Shown: positions 6,421 through 10,026 of the stretch, piece by piece
Layout of the letters: every line of letters starts with the position of its first letter
Position numbering within the stretch: position 1 is the stretch's first letter
Origin: Clostridiales bacterium
GTDB taxonomy: Bacteria; Bacillota_A; Clostridia; Oscillospirales; Oscillospiraceae
Assembly (NCBI GenBank): GCA_019410105.1
Contig: DXTB01000021.1
Location: 2,901 to 17,306, forward strand
Direction: 5' to 3'
Length of the DNA: 14,406 bases
The notes under the pieces: generated by a model
What the model was told of the DNA's origin: nothing
Database searches by the model: none
What the model saw: the letters and a program-made list of their open reading frames with translations, nothing else
Position numbers and translations under genes: made by a program

Positions 6421-7236
6421 TTACCCGTAGAAAGCGTGGGCCCCGATGGTCGCCACATAGGGGCGGTTCCGGGAGGCCCAGCTTCCGGGGGCCACGGTGG
6501 GATTCACAAAGTACAGGGCGCTGCCCGCAGTGTTGGCACCGTCCAGGCACAGCTTGGCGGCAACCACGCTCTCAGCGCTGGGGGTACGGTTGATGCTTCC
6601 GTTAGCGGCGGGGGTGAACTGGTTGCGCTGAAAGATCACTTCGTAGACGCTGTTGGGGAACCGGGGGCTGGCCACCCGGTTGAGCACCACATTACCCACT
6701 GCAATCTTTCCGTCCAAGGGCTGATTGCCGCTCTCAGCATAGATGATGCGGGAGAGCCAGTACACCACGTCCGCCTGGTAGGCCTGCTCACCGGAGAGGA
6801 TGGGCCCGCTGCCGGAGGTGATCTGGATGGTGGACTGGGTTCCGTCCCACTCCACGCCGGCGCCCAGCGCCTGGCACAGGGTTCGGATGGGAACCATGAT
6901 GCTGTAGCCCTCGCACTTGACTCCGTCCGGCACGTACAGGTAGCGGCCGTTGGCCTCGATATACTGGGTGCCGGGCTTGATGTGGAGGGTCAGGCCGTCG
7001 GCCTTGACCTCTGCCTGACCATTGACCCACTCCGCCGTCGCGTTCGGATACAAGGCGCTCACGATGGGCCAGTAGGACACATAGGTAGTGCGCGCCTCCA
7101 CACGGTTGGGCACATCTGCCACAAGGGTGATCCCATTGACTACAAAGCTGACGCTGCTCTCAGCCGCCGCCGCCTGCCCGGCCAGGGTAACGCAAAGGGC
7201 CAGGCTGACGAGCGCACAAAGGGCTCGTTTCTTCAT
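6421..7236 (-). CDS. Secreted SleB/CwlJ-type cell wall hydrolase (copy 1)
   Basis: This 271-residue protein has a signal peptide (MKKR, hydrophobic core, AAA cleavage near residue 25), a copper-amine-oxidase-N type domain (about 28-140, with the repeated pattern YIEANGRYLYVPDGV and VPIRTLCQALGA), and a C-terminal Hydrolase_2 (SleB/CwlJ) domain. The catalytic Glu is most likely Glu168 in IIYAESGNQPLDGKIAVGNV. SleB-like enzymes cut the glycan strands of peptidoglycan as lytic transglycosylases; the first domain probably helps surface binding. AGGAGG (7247-7252) lies 10 bases before the ATG. It is a paralogue of the neighbouring 7490-8293 gene, with matching domain order. The WalR-type operator over its promoter points to wall-turnover control rather than strictly spore control, though a germination role is not excluded. 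Confidence 0.9.
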   Translation of the reverse strand: MKKRALCALVSLALCVTLAGQAAAAESSVSFVVNGITLVADVPNRVEARTTYVSYWPIVSALYPNATAEWVNGQAEVKADGLTLHIKPGTQYIEANGRYLYVPDGVKCEGYSIMVPIRTLCQALGAGVEWDGTQSTIQITSGSGPILSGEQAYQADVVYWLSRIIYAESGNQPLDGKIAVGNVVLNRVASPRFPNSVYEVIFQRNQFTPAANGSINRTPSAESVVAAKLCLDGANTAGSALYFVNPTVAPGSWASRNRPYVATIGAHAFYG

Positions 7237-7283
7237 GCTTAGGATTCCTCCTGTTACAATCTGTTACTTGTTGTTCACTGTTT

Positions 7284-7300
7284 TGTAACCGTATTGTAAC
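7284..7300 (+). promoter_or_regulatory. WalR-type direct repeat at wall hydrolase copy 1
   Basis: TGTAAC (7284-7289), five bases, TGTAAC (7295-7300) is an exact match to the WalR (YycF) consensus TGTWAH-N5-TGTWAH. The repeat is on the strand opposite the gene and covers the -10 box. As I recall, sites on the opposite strand over the promoter go with WalR repression in Bacillus. A second weaker pair lies nearer the start (GTTACA 7253-7258 and GTTACT 7263-7268, one base closer together and inverted). The related PhoP box is an alternative reading on the other strand. Confidence 0.65.
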
Positions 7301-7322
7301 CGATTCTCCCCTAAAAAGTCAA
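7293..7322 (-). promoter_or_regulatory. Promoter of wall hydrolase copy 1
   Basis: On the minus strand TTGACT (7322-7317), an 18-base spacer, and TACAAT (7298-7293). Both boxes are 5/6 matches to sigma-A consensus. The same layout is kept in the promoter of copy 2. Confidence 0.7.
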
Positions 7323-7450
7323 GAGGAAGTTTTGTCGATACTGTTCAATCCATTGTGCTGCAATGGTTTCAATTCACCCTTCTCTTTGCGCGTCAGAACA
7401 TTTTTCGATGTTTCCAGCTCTCCTTCGGCTACAAATGATAACAAAAAGAA

Positions 7451-7478
7451 ACACGTCCGGAAAGCTGTCCGGACGTGT
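7451..7478 (-). terminator. Intrinsic terminator of wall hydrolase copy 2
   Basis: Arms 7451-7461 and 7468-7478 (11 bp, GC-rich) with a 6-base loop. On the minus strand the stem runs into TTCTTTTTG, a U-rich tail, 12 bases beyond the stop codon of the 7490-8293 gene. Confidence 0.85.
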
Positions 7479-7489
7479 CTCCACCGCGC

Positions 7490-8293
7490 TCAGCGGTAAA
7501 ACCAGTGGGCGCCGGTCGTCATGACGTGAGTTCTGTTTTCCATAATCCAATGGTTGTTGGTCAGCGCCGGTGCCAGGAAGTACAGGCTGTCCTTGGCCAC
7601 GTTGACCCCCTCCAAGCAGAGCTTGGCCGCCTGAATGCTCTGTTCCGTGGGCTCCTGATAGATTGTGCCATTGCGCACAGGGGTAAACTGCCCGCCCCAC
7701 CGGTCGTCAAAGATCACACCGTAGATGGTGTCCGGGAAGTCCGGGGAATCCACCCGGTTAAGTACCACGTTGCCCACTGCGATCTGTCCCTCCAGAGGCT
7801 CTCCCCGGCTCTCCGCCGAGATGATGCGGGACAGCCAGTAGAGCTTGTCCTCCCGGTTGTAGTCGGGCTGCGTCGTTGCGCTGCCTCCCCCGTTGACCGA
7901 CACTACGCCGGTGGCCGGATTCCAGTCCACGGTGGCGCCCAGCGCCTCTGCCAACACCCGCACCGGCACAAGCGTACGCCCCGCCTTCAAATGGACGCCG
8001 TCTTTGGCATACAGCGTACGGCCATTTGCTTCTATGTAGGCATCACCCGGCCGGGCCGTCAGCTTCAGCCCCTCCGCCCGGACCACAGCCCGGTCTTTCA
8101 CCCAATCCACCTCTGCATCGGGGCGCAGCGCCTCCGTTATCGTCCGCAGGGGGACATAGGTAGTGTTTTGATGGACATAGCTGCCGCTGGCGTCCACCGG
8201 TGCGCCGTTGACCCGCAGCGGGCCGGCGGACGCCGCCTGTCCGTTGGTCACCAGAGCCGCACTCAATGCCACGGCCAGTACCAGCTTTTTCAT
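7490..8293 (-). CDS. Secreted SleB/CwlJ-type cell wall hydrolase (copy 2)
   Basis: The start chosen is the ATG at 8293, giving 267 residues that begin with a signal peptide (MKKLVLAVALSAALVTNGQA). The frame stays open upstream to 8479, but that part crosses the promoter and is not signal-like. A copper-amine-oxidase-N domain (about 25-136, with TTYVPLRTITEAL and YIEANGRTLYAKDGV) precedes a Hydrolase_2 domain. The predicted catalytic residue is Glu161 in IISAESRGEPLEGQIAVGNV. It probably cleaves peptidoglycan outside the cell. The RBS AAAGG (8304-8308) with 10-base spacing is weak compared with copy 1. It has its own promoter and terminator, so despite being in tandem the two paralogues are separate units. 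The promoter carries a WalR-type operator and a 10-G tract. Confidence 0.9.
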   Translation of the reverse strand: MKKLVLAVALSAALVTNGQAASAGPLRVNGAPVDASGSYVHQNTTYVPLRTITEALRPDAEVDWVKDRAVVRAEGLKLTARPGDAYIEANGRTLYAKDGVHLKAGRTLVPVRVLAEALGATVDWNPATGVVSVNGGGSATTQPDYNREDKLYWLSRIISAESRGEPLEGQIAVGNVVLNRVDSPDFPDTIYGVIFDDRWGGQFTPVRNGTIYQEPTEQSIQAAKLCLEGVNVAKDSLYFLAPALTNNHWIMENRTHVMTTGAHWFYR

Positions 8294-8356: not shown

Positions 8357-8409
8357 GGCACAATGTTTTCCTGACTTCCCTCTTTTTTTGATTTTTTTCA
8401 ATTTTCCTC

Positions 8410-8437
8410 TTGACGTATTTGAAAAAGCTGATATAAT
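8410..8437 (+). promoter_or_regulatory. Strong sigma-A promoter of the tRNA-Ser gene
   Basis: TTGACG (8410-8415), 16 bases, perfect TATAAT (8432-8437). Transcription would begin near 8444, about 43 bases before the mature tRNA. It diverges from the hydrolase promoter at 8326-8356. Confidence 0.85.
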
Positions 8438-8486
8438 GATCTCTGCTGCTCGGCTGATGGGCGAGCAAGGATAGAGCACTCACCAT

Positions 8487-8578
8487 GGAGAGATGGCTGA
8501 GTTGGTCGAAGGCGCACGATTGGAAATCGTGTAGGCGTTAATAGCGTCTCGAGGGTTCGAATCCCTCTCTCTCCGCCA
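8487..8578 (+). tRNA. tRNA-Ser (anticodon GGA)
   Basis: The acceptor arm GGAGAGA (8487-8493) pairs perfectly with TCTCTCC (8568-8574), followed by discriminator G and an encoded CCA (8576-8578). The anticodon stem 8515-8519/8527-8531 holds the loop TTGGAAA with anticodon GGA at 8522-8524, reading UCC/UCU serine codons. A long variable arm (about 8532-8550), typical of serine tRNAs, precedes the T arm GAGGG-TTCGAAT-CCCTC (8551-8567). Confidence 0.97.
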
Positions 8579-8610
8579 AAACTCCGCAACCTTTCGGTTG
8601 CGGAGTTTTT
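8579..8610 (+). terminator. Intrinsic terminator of tRNA-Ser
   Basis: Arms 8579-8591 and 8596-8608 (13 bp) with loop TTTC and a T5 run to 8610. It begins immediately after the encoded CCA. Confidence 0.93.
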
Positions 8611-8623
8611 ATTTAATATGAAT

Positions 8624-8658
8624 CAGGCGCCCTGCCAGCTTAGCTGGCAGGGCGCCTG
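8624..8658. repeat. 35-base GC-rich near-perfect palindrome
   Basis: Two 17-bp arms (8624-8640 and 8642-8658) are perfectly complementary around a single base. No T-run follows on either strand. It lies between the tRNA terminator and the tandem terminators of the riboswitch unit. A smaller 7-bp hairpin (8661-8667/8673-8679) follows at once. Possible roles are a third convergent terminator, a cruciform or a dispersed repeat. Confidence 0.75.
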
Positions 8659-8679
8659 TCCGGGGAGCTGTTCTCCCCG

Positions 8680-8810
8680 CCCCAACCCATTCGCAGGCCC
8701 TGCGCGTTCCGTCGGGAGTCTGCGGCCCCGTTCCATTCTCCCCAATGTCCGGGCGGCCGCCTGGCCGGTCCTGGAATTCACCTGTTAAGCGGAACCGTCG
8801 ATCCCGAAAT
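8680..8810. other. Non-coding stretch, nothing recognised
   Basis: The longest frame crossing it (82 codons on the minus strand, 8609-8857) runs through a terminator and has no recognisable protein features. No RNA fold or known site stands out. It may be the scar of a gene once placed after the cobalamin riboswitch. Confidence 0.4.
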
Positions 8811-8842
8811 GAAAAAGCGGATACCTCTGTATCCGCTTTTTC
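8811..8842 (-). terminator. Second tandem terminator of the riboswitch unit
   Basis: Arms 8811-8824 and 8829-8842 (14 bp) with a 4-base loop. A5 on one side and T5 on the other allow it to work on both strands. Confidence 0.85.
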
Positions 8843-8863
8843 CCACCTTGGGAGCAAGTCGAA

Positions 8864-8892
8864 AAAAGCGGTAACCTCAGGTTACCGCTTTT
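8864..8892 (-). terminator. First terminator of the riboswitch unit
   Basis: Arms 8864-8876 and 8880-8892 (13 bp) with a 3-base loop. On the minus strand the stem leads into six Us. The loop on that strand is exactly the TGA stop of the 8-codon ORF at 8903-8877. Confidence 0.88.
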
Positions 8893-8903
8893 GCACGCAC
8901 CAT
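8877..8903 (-). CDS. Possible 8-codon ORF controlled by the riboswitch
   Basis: ATG at 8903 reads MVRAKAVT and stops at TGA (8879-8877). It has an ideally placed RBS, GGAGG (8916-8912) 8 bases upstream, which lies in a hairpin. It may be the start of a lost gene or a leader peptide. Coding status is uncertain. Confidence 0.3.
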   Translation of the reverse strand: MVRAKAVT

Positions 8904-8906
8904 GCC

Positions 8907-9176
8907 TCTCCCCTCCACTCGGGGAGAAACTGCTCCTTGTAGGTCTTCTGACTCACACGTCCAGACAGCTATGCCGCCAGCGCATATCCCCCGCCTTCCC
9001 AGCACAAGCCAGTGACCCGCTTTCACGGAAAGAGGATACGCTCCGTGCTTACAGCTACGTACCCATCCGCACCGAGCGGAGCTGGGCCGTGTTCAGGAAT
9101 TTCACCTGATTCCCTTGTTCAGCGAACAAGAATACGTGTCCCGCCCGGACAGGCGGGGTCGCGTAAATGCCACAAA
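8907..9176 (-). ncRNA. Cobalamin (B12) riboswitch with RBS-sequestering hairpin
   Basis: Reading the minus strand, the conserved B12-box elements appear in order: GGGAATCAGGTGAAATTCC (about 9114-9096), an ACGGCCC segment, AGCTGTAAGC, TCACTGG...GGGAAGGCG, and the 3' signature GAGTCAGAAGACCT (8954-8941), close to the consensus AGxCAGGAxACCTGCC. A plausible P1 pairs 9176-9170 with 8942-8936 with wobbles. After it comes a 7-bp hairpin (8927-8921/8913-8907) whose 3' side contains the RBS GGAGG. Its loop GAGTGGA (8920-8914) is complementary to TCCGCTC (9080-9074, one G-U pair) in the L5 region, as expected for the kissing loop that locks the RBS when cobalamin binds. It has its own promoter, but only an 8-codon ORF and two terminators lie downstream. 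Confidence 0.87.
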
Positions 9177-9206
9177 AGCCGGAGTTCGATATTCAACTGT
9201 GCTTCC

Positions 9207-9235
9207 ATCATATACCGCCCGACCGGGAAAGTCAA
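9207..9235 (-). promoter_or_regulatory. Promoter of the cobalamin riboswitch transcript
   Basis: On the minus strand TTGACT (9235-9230), 17 bases, TATGAT (9212-9207); both are 5/6 matches. Transcription would start near 9200, about 25 bases before the aptamer. The -35 box overlaps the stop codon of the IclR-family gene. Confidence 0.75.
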
Positions 9236-10026
9236 TCCCCTTCCTCAGGCCACTCCTCATAGGCCAGCCGGCGGGAGAGTTCCGCTGCCATATCCATTAC
9301 CAGGGGTGCCAGCGCCTCCAGCCGCGCCCTGGACATACGGGTGGTGGGACCTGAGACACTGATCCCGCCTACAATCCGCCCCGAGTAATCACGCACCGGC
9401 GCCGCCACACAGCGGGCACCCAGCTCCCGCTCCTCGTCCTCCAGGGCATAGCCCCGACTGCGTATCATCTCCAAGCTGTTCACCAGCGCCTCCCGCGTGA
9501 CCAGTGTATGGGGCGTCAGGGCCCGCAGGCCCTTAACTGCTATGTACTCGTTCAGCTTCTGGTTACTGTAATTGAGCAGCAGGAGCTTTCCCGCGCCGGT
9601 GGCGTGGAGCGGGGCGCGTGCGCCTACCCGCTGGCTCACCATCAGGATTCCGTCCGGGCCGTCCACCACATCGGTGCACTCCACTTCCATTTCTGCCTCA
9701 CACCACAGGCACACAGTCTCCTGACAGCGCTGCGCCAACTCTGCCAGGAATGGCCGCGCCACATCCCGCATATTGGTCTGTTCACTGACCAAGCAACCCA
9801 GGCGCGCAAACCGCAGCGACAGAGAGTAGTGCTGCGTACAGGGATCCTGATTGACATAGCCGTACACCTGCAGTGTATTAAGCATCCGCATCACCGTGCT
9901 GGCCGGCATTCCACATTTCTTAGCAACGTCCTGCAGCCGCATAGGGCCCTTACCGCGGGCCATAACCTCCACAATCTGAATGGTTTTTTCAATGGACTGA
10001 TTGACCTTGGATAGTTTTGCATTCAT
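9232..10026 (-). CDS. IclR-family transcriptional regulator
   Basis: The 264-residue protein has an N-terminal winged helix-turn-helix (about residues 10-70, with RLQDVAKKCGMPASTVMRMLNTL as the DNA-reading part) and a C-terminal IclR effector domain. Family signatures are HATGAGKLLL (141-150) and RGYALEDEERELGARCVAAPV (191-211). IclR proteins are dimeric repressors or activators, usually of carbon or aromatic-acid degradation genes, and bind a small carboxylic acid. Conserved-looking Cys residues (Cys63, Cys106, Cys109, Cys117) are frequent here but their role is unknown. The RBS AAAGGGTG (10042-10035) sits 8 bases before the ATG. The gene stands alone: no catabolic operon lies beside it, so its target is unknown. 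No terminator follows; the riboswitch promoter begins within its stop codon. Confidence 0.93.
   Translation of the reverse strand: MNAKLSKVNQSIEKTIQIVEVMARGKGPMRLQDVAKKCGMPASTVMRMLNTLQVYGYVNQDPCTQHYSLSLRFARLGCLVSEQTNMRDVARPFLAELAQRCQETVCLWCEAEMEVECTDVVDGPDGILMVSQRVGARAPLHATGAGKLLLLNYSNQKLNEYIAVKGLRALTPHTLVTREALVNSLEMIRSRGYALEDEERELGARCVAAPVRDYSGRIVGGISVSGPTTRMSRARLEALAPLVMDMAAELSRRLAYEEWPEEGD

Follow-up and report, generated by a model that had tools for sequence, protein, structure and literature searches.

The window analysed here, a stretch of 14,406 nucleotides, carries what its sequence indicates is a real and intact cobalamin (B12) riboswitch cassette that has a promoter of its own but no gene immediately following, as the initial annotation had stated. 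The same holds in both Flavonifractor plautii genomes examined. Comparison with related loci indicates that the unit is a lineage-specific cassette, most likely one that was stranded without its gene. It is probably still transcribed and B12-responsive, judging from its intact parts, with the RNA as its only product. Riboswitches are usually taken as parts of messenger RNAs, and annotation ties each of them to the next gene. Rli55/EutX and AspocR are cases of stand-alone B12 RNAs. A maintained gene-less riboswitch, if true, would be a stand-alone metabolite-responsive RNA. Among the matches listed from titles and abstract openings in the open-licence literature, no prior description of a gene-less cobalamin riboswitch was found. 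The features of the unit and its neighbours are listed in Table 1.

Table 1. Features of the gene-less riboswitch unit and its surroundings, in window coordinates.
Feature	Position	Strand	Remarks
IclR-type regulator gene (iclR)	9232-10026 (10026-9232)	minus	PF01614, PF09339; directly upstream of the unit, same strand
Promoter TTGACT-17-TATGAT	9235-9207	minus	10/12 matches; -35 box contains the iclR stop codon
Leader element TCCGGCUUUUGUGGC	9169-9183	minus	conserved in relatives; T1 and T2 have complementary 5' arms; proposed antiterminator strand
5' hairpin ACGCGACC...GGACACGU	9134-9164	minus	before the aptamer core; read from alignments
Cobalamin aptamer RF00174	9146-8921	minus	cmscan; model positions 1-189/189
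Hairpin after the aptamer	8903-8932	minus	fold of 8932-8898, -18.4 kcal/mol; G-rich 3' arm resembles an RBS; presumably P13, by analogy
8-codon ORF MVRAKAVT	8877-8903, ATG at 8903	minus	stop 8879-8877 is the T1 loop
Terminator T1	8892-8864, with U run to 8862	minus	13 bp, loop UGA; -19.1 kcal/mol (8898-8858)
Terminator T2	8841-8812, feature to 8808	minus	13 bp, loop of 4; -16.3 kcal/mol (8840-8808)
Perfect 16-bp palindrome	8624-8658	none	GC-rich, in the gene-less spacer; -37.5 kcal/mol
tRNA terminator	8578-8609	plus-strand side	after tRNA-Ser
tRNA-Ser (GGA), convergent	8487-8578	plus	ARAGORN; cmscan gives 8487-8575
SleB-type cell-wall hydrolase gene	7490-8293 (8293-7490)	minus	family name presumed; next same-strand gene, beyond the convergent tRNA-Ser

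The good promoter and the well-formed aptamer that had been annotated are both borne out. The aptamer scores 54.5 bits in the Infernal search with the Rfam cobalamin model (gathering cut-off 31.5, E 1.9e-11). It exhibits no sign of decay, since this score is near the top of the listed subfamily members (about 33-56 bits). It is the only cobalamin riboswitch that cmscan reports in the window, and a search at permissive thresholds for a second, decayed aptamer after T2 returned nothing cobalamin-like besides this match. The 405-nt RNA of the unit folds 6.4 SD below shuffles. Two promoter-like sites were identified in 8400-9400 compared with a mean of 0.3 in shuffles, and the second of them is located upstream of the tRNA on the plus strand. 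The distance from the end of the -10 box to GGCTTTTGTGGC is 26 bases, and the spacing is identical in two relatives of the cbiZ group. T1 and T2 were identified using a custom script and folds, and a separate terminator scan listed neither. T2 aligns with the terminator of SLH and ABC-transporter relatives. The hairpin after the aptamer had been read as hiding an RBS. It aligns with an equivalent hairpin in the relatives where no RBS is visible (alignment by eye), and this reading is not retained.

The stop codon of the 8-codon ORF is indeed located in the loop of T1. It is not, as had been claimed, the only ORF, since ten frames of at least 20 codons overlap 8610-8920, and the longest of these has 82 codons from TTG (8857-8609). 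Nor does it appear to matter. The 8-codon ORF is the in-frame end of a 49-codon GTG frame, is absent from the relatives in the alignment, and encodes MVRTKAVT in F. plautii ATCC 29863 where G is changed to A at 8894. It is judged fortuitous on these sequence features. Within 8605-8870, every ORF of 20 codons or longer scores below zero for coding potential (best -0.3, with the score trained on eight genes of the same window), and the 82-codon frame has no Pfam match. No gene remnant was found in 8605-8812, and of 20 genus genomes ATCC 29863 alone has DNA that matches this stretch. The initial annotation had placed only the palindrome and the convergent tRNA beyond the unit. That stands insofar as no coding-like ORF was found between the aptamer with its terminators and tRNA-Ser, but a SleB-type gene on the same strand starts 890 bases after the riboswitch leader, behind the convergent tRNA-Ser. 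The usual cis control of a downstream gene was not found for the unit, which is flanked by iclR and tRNA-Ser.

The window belongs to F. plautii. Over 13.9 kb it matches a contig of the type strain ATCC 29863 (G001:C23) at 99.1% identity, and the IclR protein is 100% identical between them. ATCC 29863 carries the same gene-less unit with three substitutions in 425 bases (9235-8811: 8967, 8894, and 8857). The spacer at 8810-8600 exhibits three substitutions and two short gaps. Two of the three substitutions in the unit are located in proposed stems and keep the pairing (8967, G-U/G-C; 8894, G-U/A-U). This kept pairing is suggestive only. The palindrome forms a strong hairpin without a U run, and one of its arm bases is changed in ATCC 29863.

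The site was compared with the sister species. Nine genus loci around hydrolases of the same family were scanned for Rfam families. Two of them were left out, as one (L142, genome G020) ends about 115 bases past the tRNA and the other (L149, G015) does not show the junction. The remaining seven (L141, L143-L148) have the hydrolase and the tRNA with different DNA past the tRNA, and none of the seven has a cobalamin match at the hydrolase/tRNA junction. Six further loci (L150-L155) were judged from the genome-wide list of cobalamin matches, which has none on their contigs. Genome G018 has the hydrolase and the tRNA in the same places without the riboswitch, and its iclR relative (61% identity) is inverted, about 7 kb from the tRNA, and also without riboswitch. 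The synteny comparison, which had been proposed as a search for an intact gene at this place in relatives, does not contradict the gene-less reading, as the seven sister-species loci are without the riboswitch altogether. It follows that the unit was either gained by the F. plautii lineage or left behind in it. Three candidate histories were rejected. A travelling module that includes IclR was set aside as the closest IclR relative in the other 19 genus genomes (that of G018) has no riboswitch. A lost gene at the same site was not found in relatives, since the seven junction loci carry other DNA beyond the tRNA. For a phage origin, the leader pattern gave no exact match in viral_contigs.

The unit belongs to a leader subfamily in Oscillospirales. 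A DNA search with the unit returned relatives at about 70% identity, with a match in 7 of 60 genomes including the nearest one. The relatives have in common the P3 region, the 5' leader TCCGRCUUUUGUGGC (core CCGRCUUUUG; one U fewer in two), and the hairpin GCGCGACC...GGACACGC, which differs in the cbiZ group. A covariance model (R1) was constructed from the leader, the 5' hairpin, and the P3 region, with the window's own copy as a training row; all three parts of the unit match it. R1 has matches in 39 of 400 family genomes at E <= 0.01. Among these are 36 matches at E <= 1.2e-8, and they include the ATCC 29863 copy at 98.2 bits (E 3.4e-17), a score from a model that includes the window's near-identical copy. 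Of 394 order genomes, ten have matches at E <= 1e-4, two of them strong and outside the family. The family rows at E 2.7e-5 to 0.0096 were dropped, as were the weak order-wide matches in G470 and G630, while the strong ones in G505 and G704 were added. The 40 loci analysed consist of the 36 strong family loci, these two, and two from the DNA search.

In 31 of the 40 loci a same-strand gene starts within 1 kb with nothing convergent before it, and three of these genes have low coding scores (G114_C52, G168, and G114_C20). A convergent gene comes first in six loci. It is cbiZ in G005b, G015, and G017, and a DegV-like gene (a name that we presume) at +1001 in G320, G095, and G238. Two loci end too soon for the following gene to be judged. 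The window makes up the fortieth locus, with its same-strand gene at +890 behind the convergent tRNA. Tandem terminators were identified in 13 of the 31 gene-bearing loci, with six multi-site loci judged not tandem (G015_C79, G233, G120a, G170, G230, and G005a). Tandem terminators therefore do not mark a closed unit. T1 and T2 are present as annotated, but the closure that was read from them is not upheld. Tandem terminators belong to the platform of the subfamily. Their spacing is alike in the window (+291/+342), G244 (+296/+341), and G081 (+301/+342).

Both G244 and G081 precede proteins with SLH and DUF4430 domains, and likewise G380, G233, and G005a. Ten first genes were scanned. Four encode SLH+DUF4430 proteins, two encode proteins with SLH only, and four encode others (dockerin/Glug, a solute-binding protein, a LytTR regulator, and a nucleotidyltransferase). 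B12 riboswitches are located ahead of large SLH+DUF4430 proteins at L089 2334-9806, L195 2433-6236, L203 3645-6593, L206 4359-6614, and L200 2475-6662. These proteins are possibly surface corrinoid-binding proteins, as DUF4430 presumably resembles a transcobalamin domain. No paper combining three of the terms DUF4430, cobalamin, riboswitch, and S-layer homology was found in the open-licence literature. Small proteins are encoded between the riboswitch and giant surface proteins (L087 1343-1687, L088 946-1311, L092 8895-9608, and the first genes of G325 and G131). The one in L092 matches HNH_repeat (PF18780), the one in L087 has no Pfam match, and the others are alike at the N terminus. In the tree of the subfamily, which left out G120a, G114_C20, G321, and G125b (end not recognised), the window is on a long branch with a nearest-node support of 0.40. 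G191 was cut to 91 bases in the tree, and its 80.9% identity is not comparable with the others. The nearest loci by distance are G259a and G259b, whose following proteins remain outside the protein scan.

The subfamily offers a clear hypothesis of a long-range leader antiterminator that reaches across a B12 aptamer. The leader core CCGRCUUUUG is complementary to the AAAAGCGG arm that is common in the terminators of the relatives, and the leader itself reads like a terminator 3' arm with its U run. AAGCGG is present in 28 of 56 subfamily terminators compared with 2 of 220 among the remaining terminators at these loci. The median leader-arm duplex energy is -10.65 against -7.9 for the background (p 2e-7), where the background was scored with the window's leader only. 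Of the 38 loci tested, 33 have any terminator, and 28 of these have AAGCG or AAGCA in the arm; these leader-terminator counts are not independent, as the loci are related and the match is partly inherited. Five loci have no terminator by the script and one of them, G114_C52, has a perfect leader. G130/G200 do not fit the leader-arm pattern. In the window the 5' arms of both terminators are complementary to the leader, with duplex energies in two calculations of -11.6 and -14.6 kcal/mol for T1 and of -9.1 and -9.3 kcal/mol for T2. Taken singly, -11.6 and -9.1 kcal/mol are not extreme against the background median of -7.9 and 5% quantile of -12.2. We infer from this complementarity that the leader may act as the antiterminator strand.

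A gene-less unit of the same subfamily was identified in another genus, g76, in three of seven genomes (G320, G095, and G238; loci L201, L202, and L207, oriented +0 to +395) that represent three species. The aligned unit, leader through terminator, has 19 variable columns of 395, and the spacer after it has 58 of 367 (p 3e-7). In the DegV-like coding sequence 92 of 867 columns vary among the three species. For the pair of G320 and G095 alone, the unit does not differ from the coding sequence (p 0.18), only from the spacer. Both of these genomes have a folB-like gene upstream of the unit. In G238 the unit starts 78 bases into the contig and the folB-like gene is on another contig. G179 has a folB relative (58%) followed by other genes, with no leader motif. 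These column counts argue that a gene-less subfamily unit stays constrained at least once, in g76, which makes g76 the stronger comparative case than the F. plautii unit. The g76 units are comparative evidence of constraint without a gene, and the F. plautii unit sits in a cultured strain. The constraint in g76 makes a role for the F. plautii unit more likely, without showing it. An ORF of about 26 codons (by eye) is located beside the DegV-like gene on the opposite strand in the three g76 loci (oriented about +826 to +905), and the stretch around it is nearly identical in the three species.

The explanation that we favour, to which we give an even chance, is an intact subfamily riboswitch cassette left without its gene. 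The cassette would formerly have preceded a secreted surface protein, as several relatives do, and in the F. plautii lineage it would have been left stranded beside tRNA-Ser. RNA polymerase would start near 9200. With corrinoid bound, the terminators would form and an RNA of about 340-390 nt would be released. With no corrinoid, the leader CCGGCUUUUG would pair with the AAAAGCGG arm of T1 (or with that of T2), termination would be relaxed, and read-through would extend the RNA to no more than about 600 nt, as far as the palindrome and the tRNA terminator. The direction of this B12 response is assumed. The presumed lost gene could not be traced, which counts against the stranded cassette, as do the weak tree support for the window's position and the g76 unit, since maintenance in another genus means that gene-less need not equal decay. 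The unit could instead be a cobalamin-controlled small RNA where the RNA itself is the selected product, with its length set by B12 and with action in trans by pairing or protein binding. We consider this a tentative reading, less probable than a stranded cassette. It is favoured by the promoter, leader, aptamer, and terminators that are intact in two strains, by the pairing kept at two of the three substitutions, and by the low variation of the g76 unit relative to its adjacent spacer. However, two strains that are 99% alike cannot show selection (three changes in 425 bases, with the 13.9 kb compared differing at about 0.9%), the g76 unit occupies a non-orthologous position, and only three of the seven g76 genomes have it, at a contig end in G238. 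A broader form, where gene-less units are a recurring class of B12-set regulatory RNA freed independently in F. plautii and g76, acting in trans on the B12 regulon via the terminator-mimicking leader or B12-dependent length, is rather unlikely. The SleB-type gene within 1 kb slightly lowers the chances of both the stranded cassette and a functional RNA. That gene is part of another rival, where the transcript reads through as antisense over the convergent tRNA-Ser, or into the hydrolase gene, and the riboswitch would control one or the other. In two gene-bearing relatives the gene is as far away as +923 and +965, and the relatives G005b, G015, and G017 face a convergent cbiZ, past which the riboswitch strand encodes a btuF-like binding protein. 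Antisense-acting riboswitches have also been described, with 292 reported in PMC9943018. This read-through is nevertheless improbable, as it would have to continue beyond both T1 and T2, then the palindrome, and then the terminator of the tRNA, which has a hairpin then UUUU in the minus direction too, and the tRNA and hydrolase are likewise placed in G018, which lacks the riboswitch there.

PMC8079631 and PMC9943018 describe AspocR (Rli39), a B12-riboswitch RNA (PMC8079631), and antisense-acting riboswitches as convergent to the next feature, a layout that the F. plautii unit shares. The unit differs from them in that its convergent feature is tRNA-Ser behind strong hairpins, with no protein gene overlapped, so it is not 3' of and antisense to a protein gene. 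The three cbiZ-convergent relatives seem by their arrangement to fit the antisense-acting kind, and the word cbiZ is absent from the main text of PMC9943018. Rli55/EutX, as set out in PMC8079631 and PMC8934654, is a B12-riboswitch RNA that sequesters EutV, and it resembles the unit in its own promoter, B12 aptamer, and RNA product. A decoy of this type, sequestering the antiterminator EutV when B12 is absent, has hardly any likelihood here, even with four ANTAR proteins in ATCC 29863. These are on other contigs, and no eut genes adjoin the unit. The stretch 9206-8480 gave one lone hexaloop on a stem of 3 bp or more and no dual A1/G4 hexaloop pair, in a scan whose sensitivity is not established, as its controls were not clean. 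The dual motif was absent from four of five eut/gln stretches, with the fifth giving overlapping hits near one spot, and from all eight stretches of a second control. The doubt that the initial annotation had expressed about this mechanism is kept, as no support for it was found. It is also very improbable that the unit mainly provides the upstream regulator gene iclR with its terminator or 3' UTR. Its start coincides with the iclR stop codon and both lie on the same strand, but the unit carries a promoter itself, such a role does not call for a full aptamer, and the iclR relative of G018 has no such unit. Among RF00174 members, the unit is ordinary in an aptamer above the curated cut-off across the whole model, and differs in the extra 5' leader and hairpin shared with its subfamily and in the missing gene. 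The B12 riboswitches before SLH/DUF4430 surface proteins in Oscillospiraceae have the same leader, aptamer, and in some cases the same tandem terminators; the gene is present there and absent in the F. plautii unit.

Further cobalamin elements were observed. Cobalamin riboswitches convergent to cbiZ (PF01955) in an excludon-like arrangement are located at L093 2664-4119, L094 6388-7843, and L089 14428-15799. The F. plautii cbiZ in ATCC 29863 (L164, about 6811-7918) aligns as two adjacent pieces (residues 1-205 and 209-365), possibly a broken gene or a sequencing error, and no cobalamin match is listed beside it. The ATCC 29863 genome has 18 RF00174-family matches, at least one of them below the cut-off. 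Two elements that are alike, at L089 10375-10631 (G005) and L096 13178-13434 (ATCC 29863), score 26.9 and 25.8 bits for RF00174 against the cut-off of 31.5, and the ORFs behind both elements start alike.
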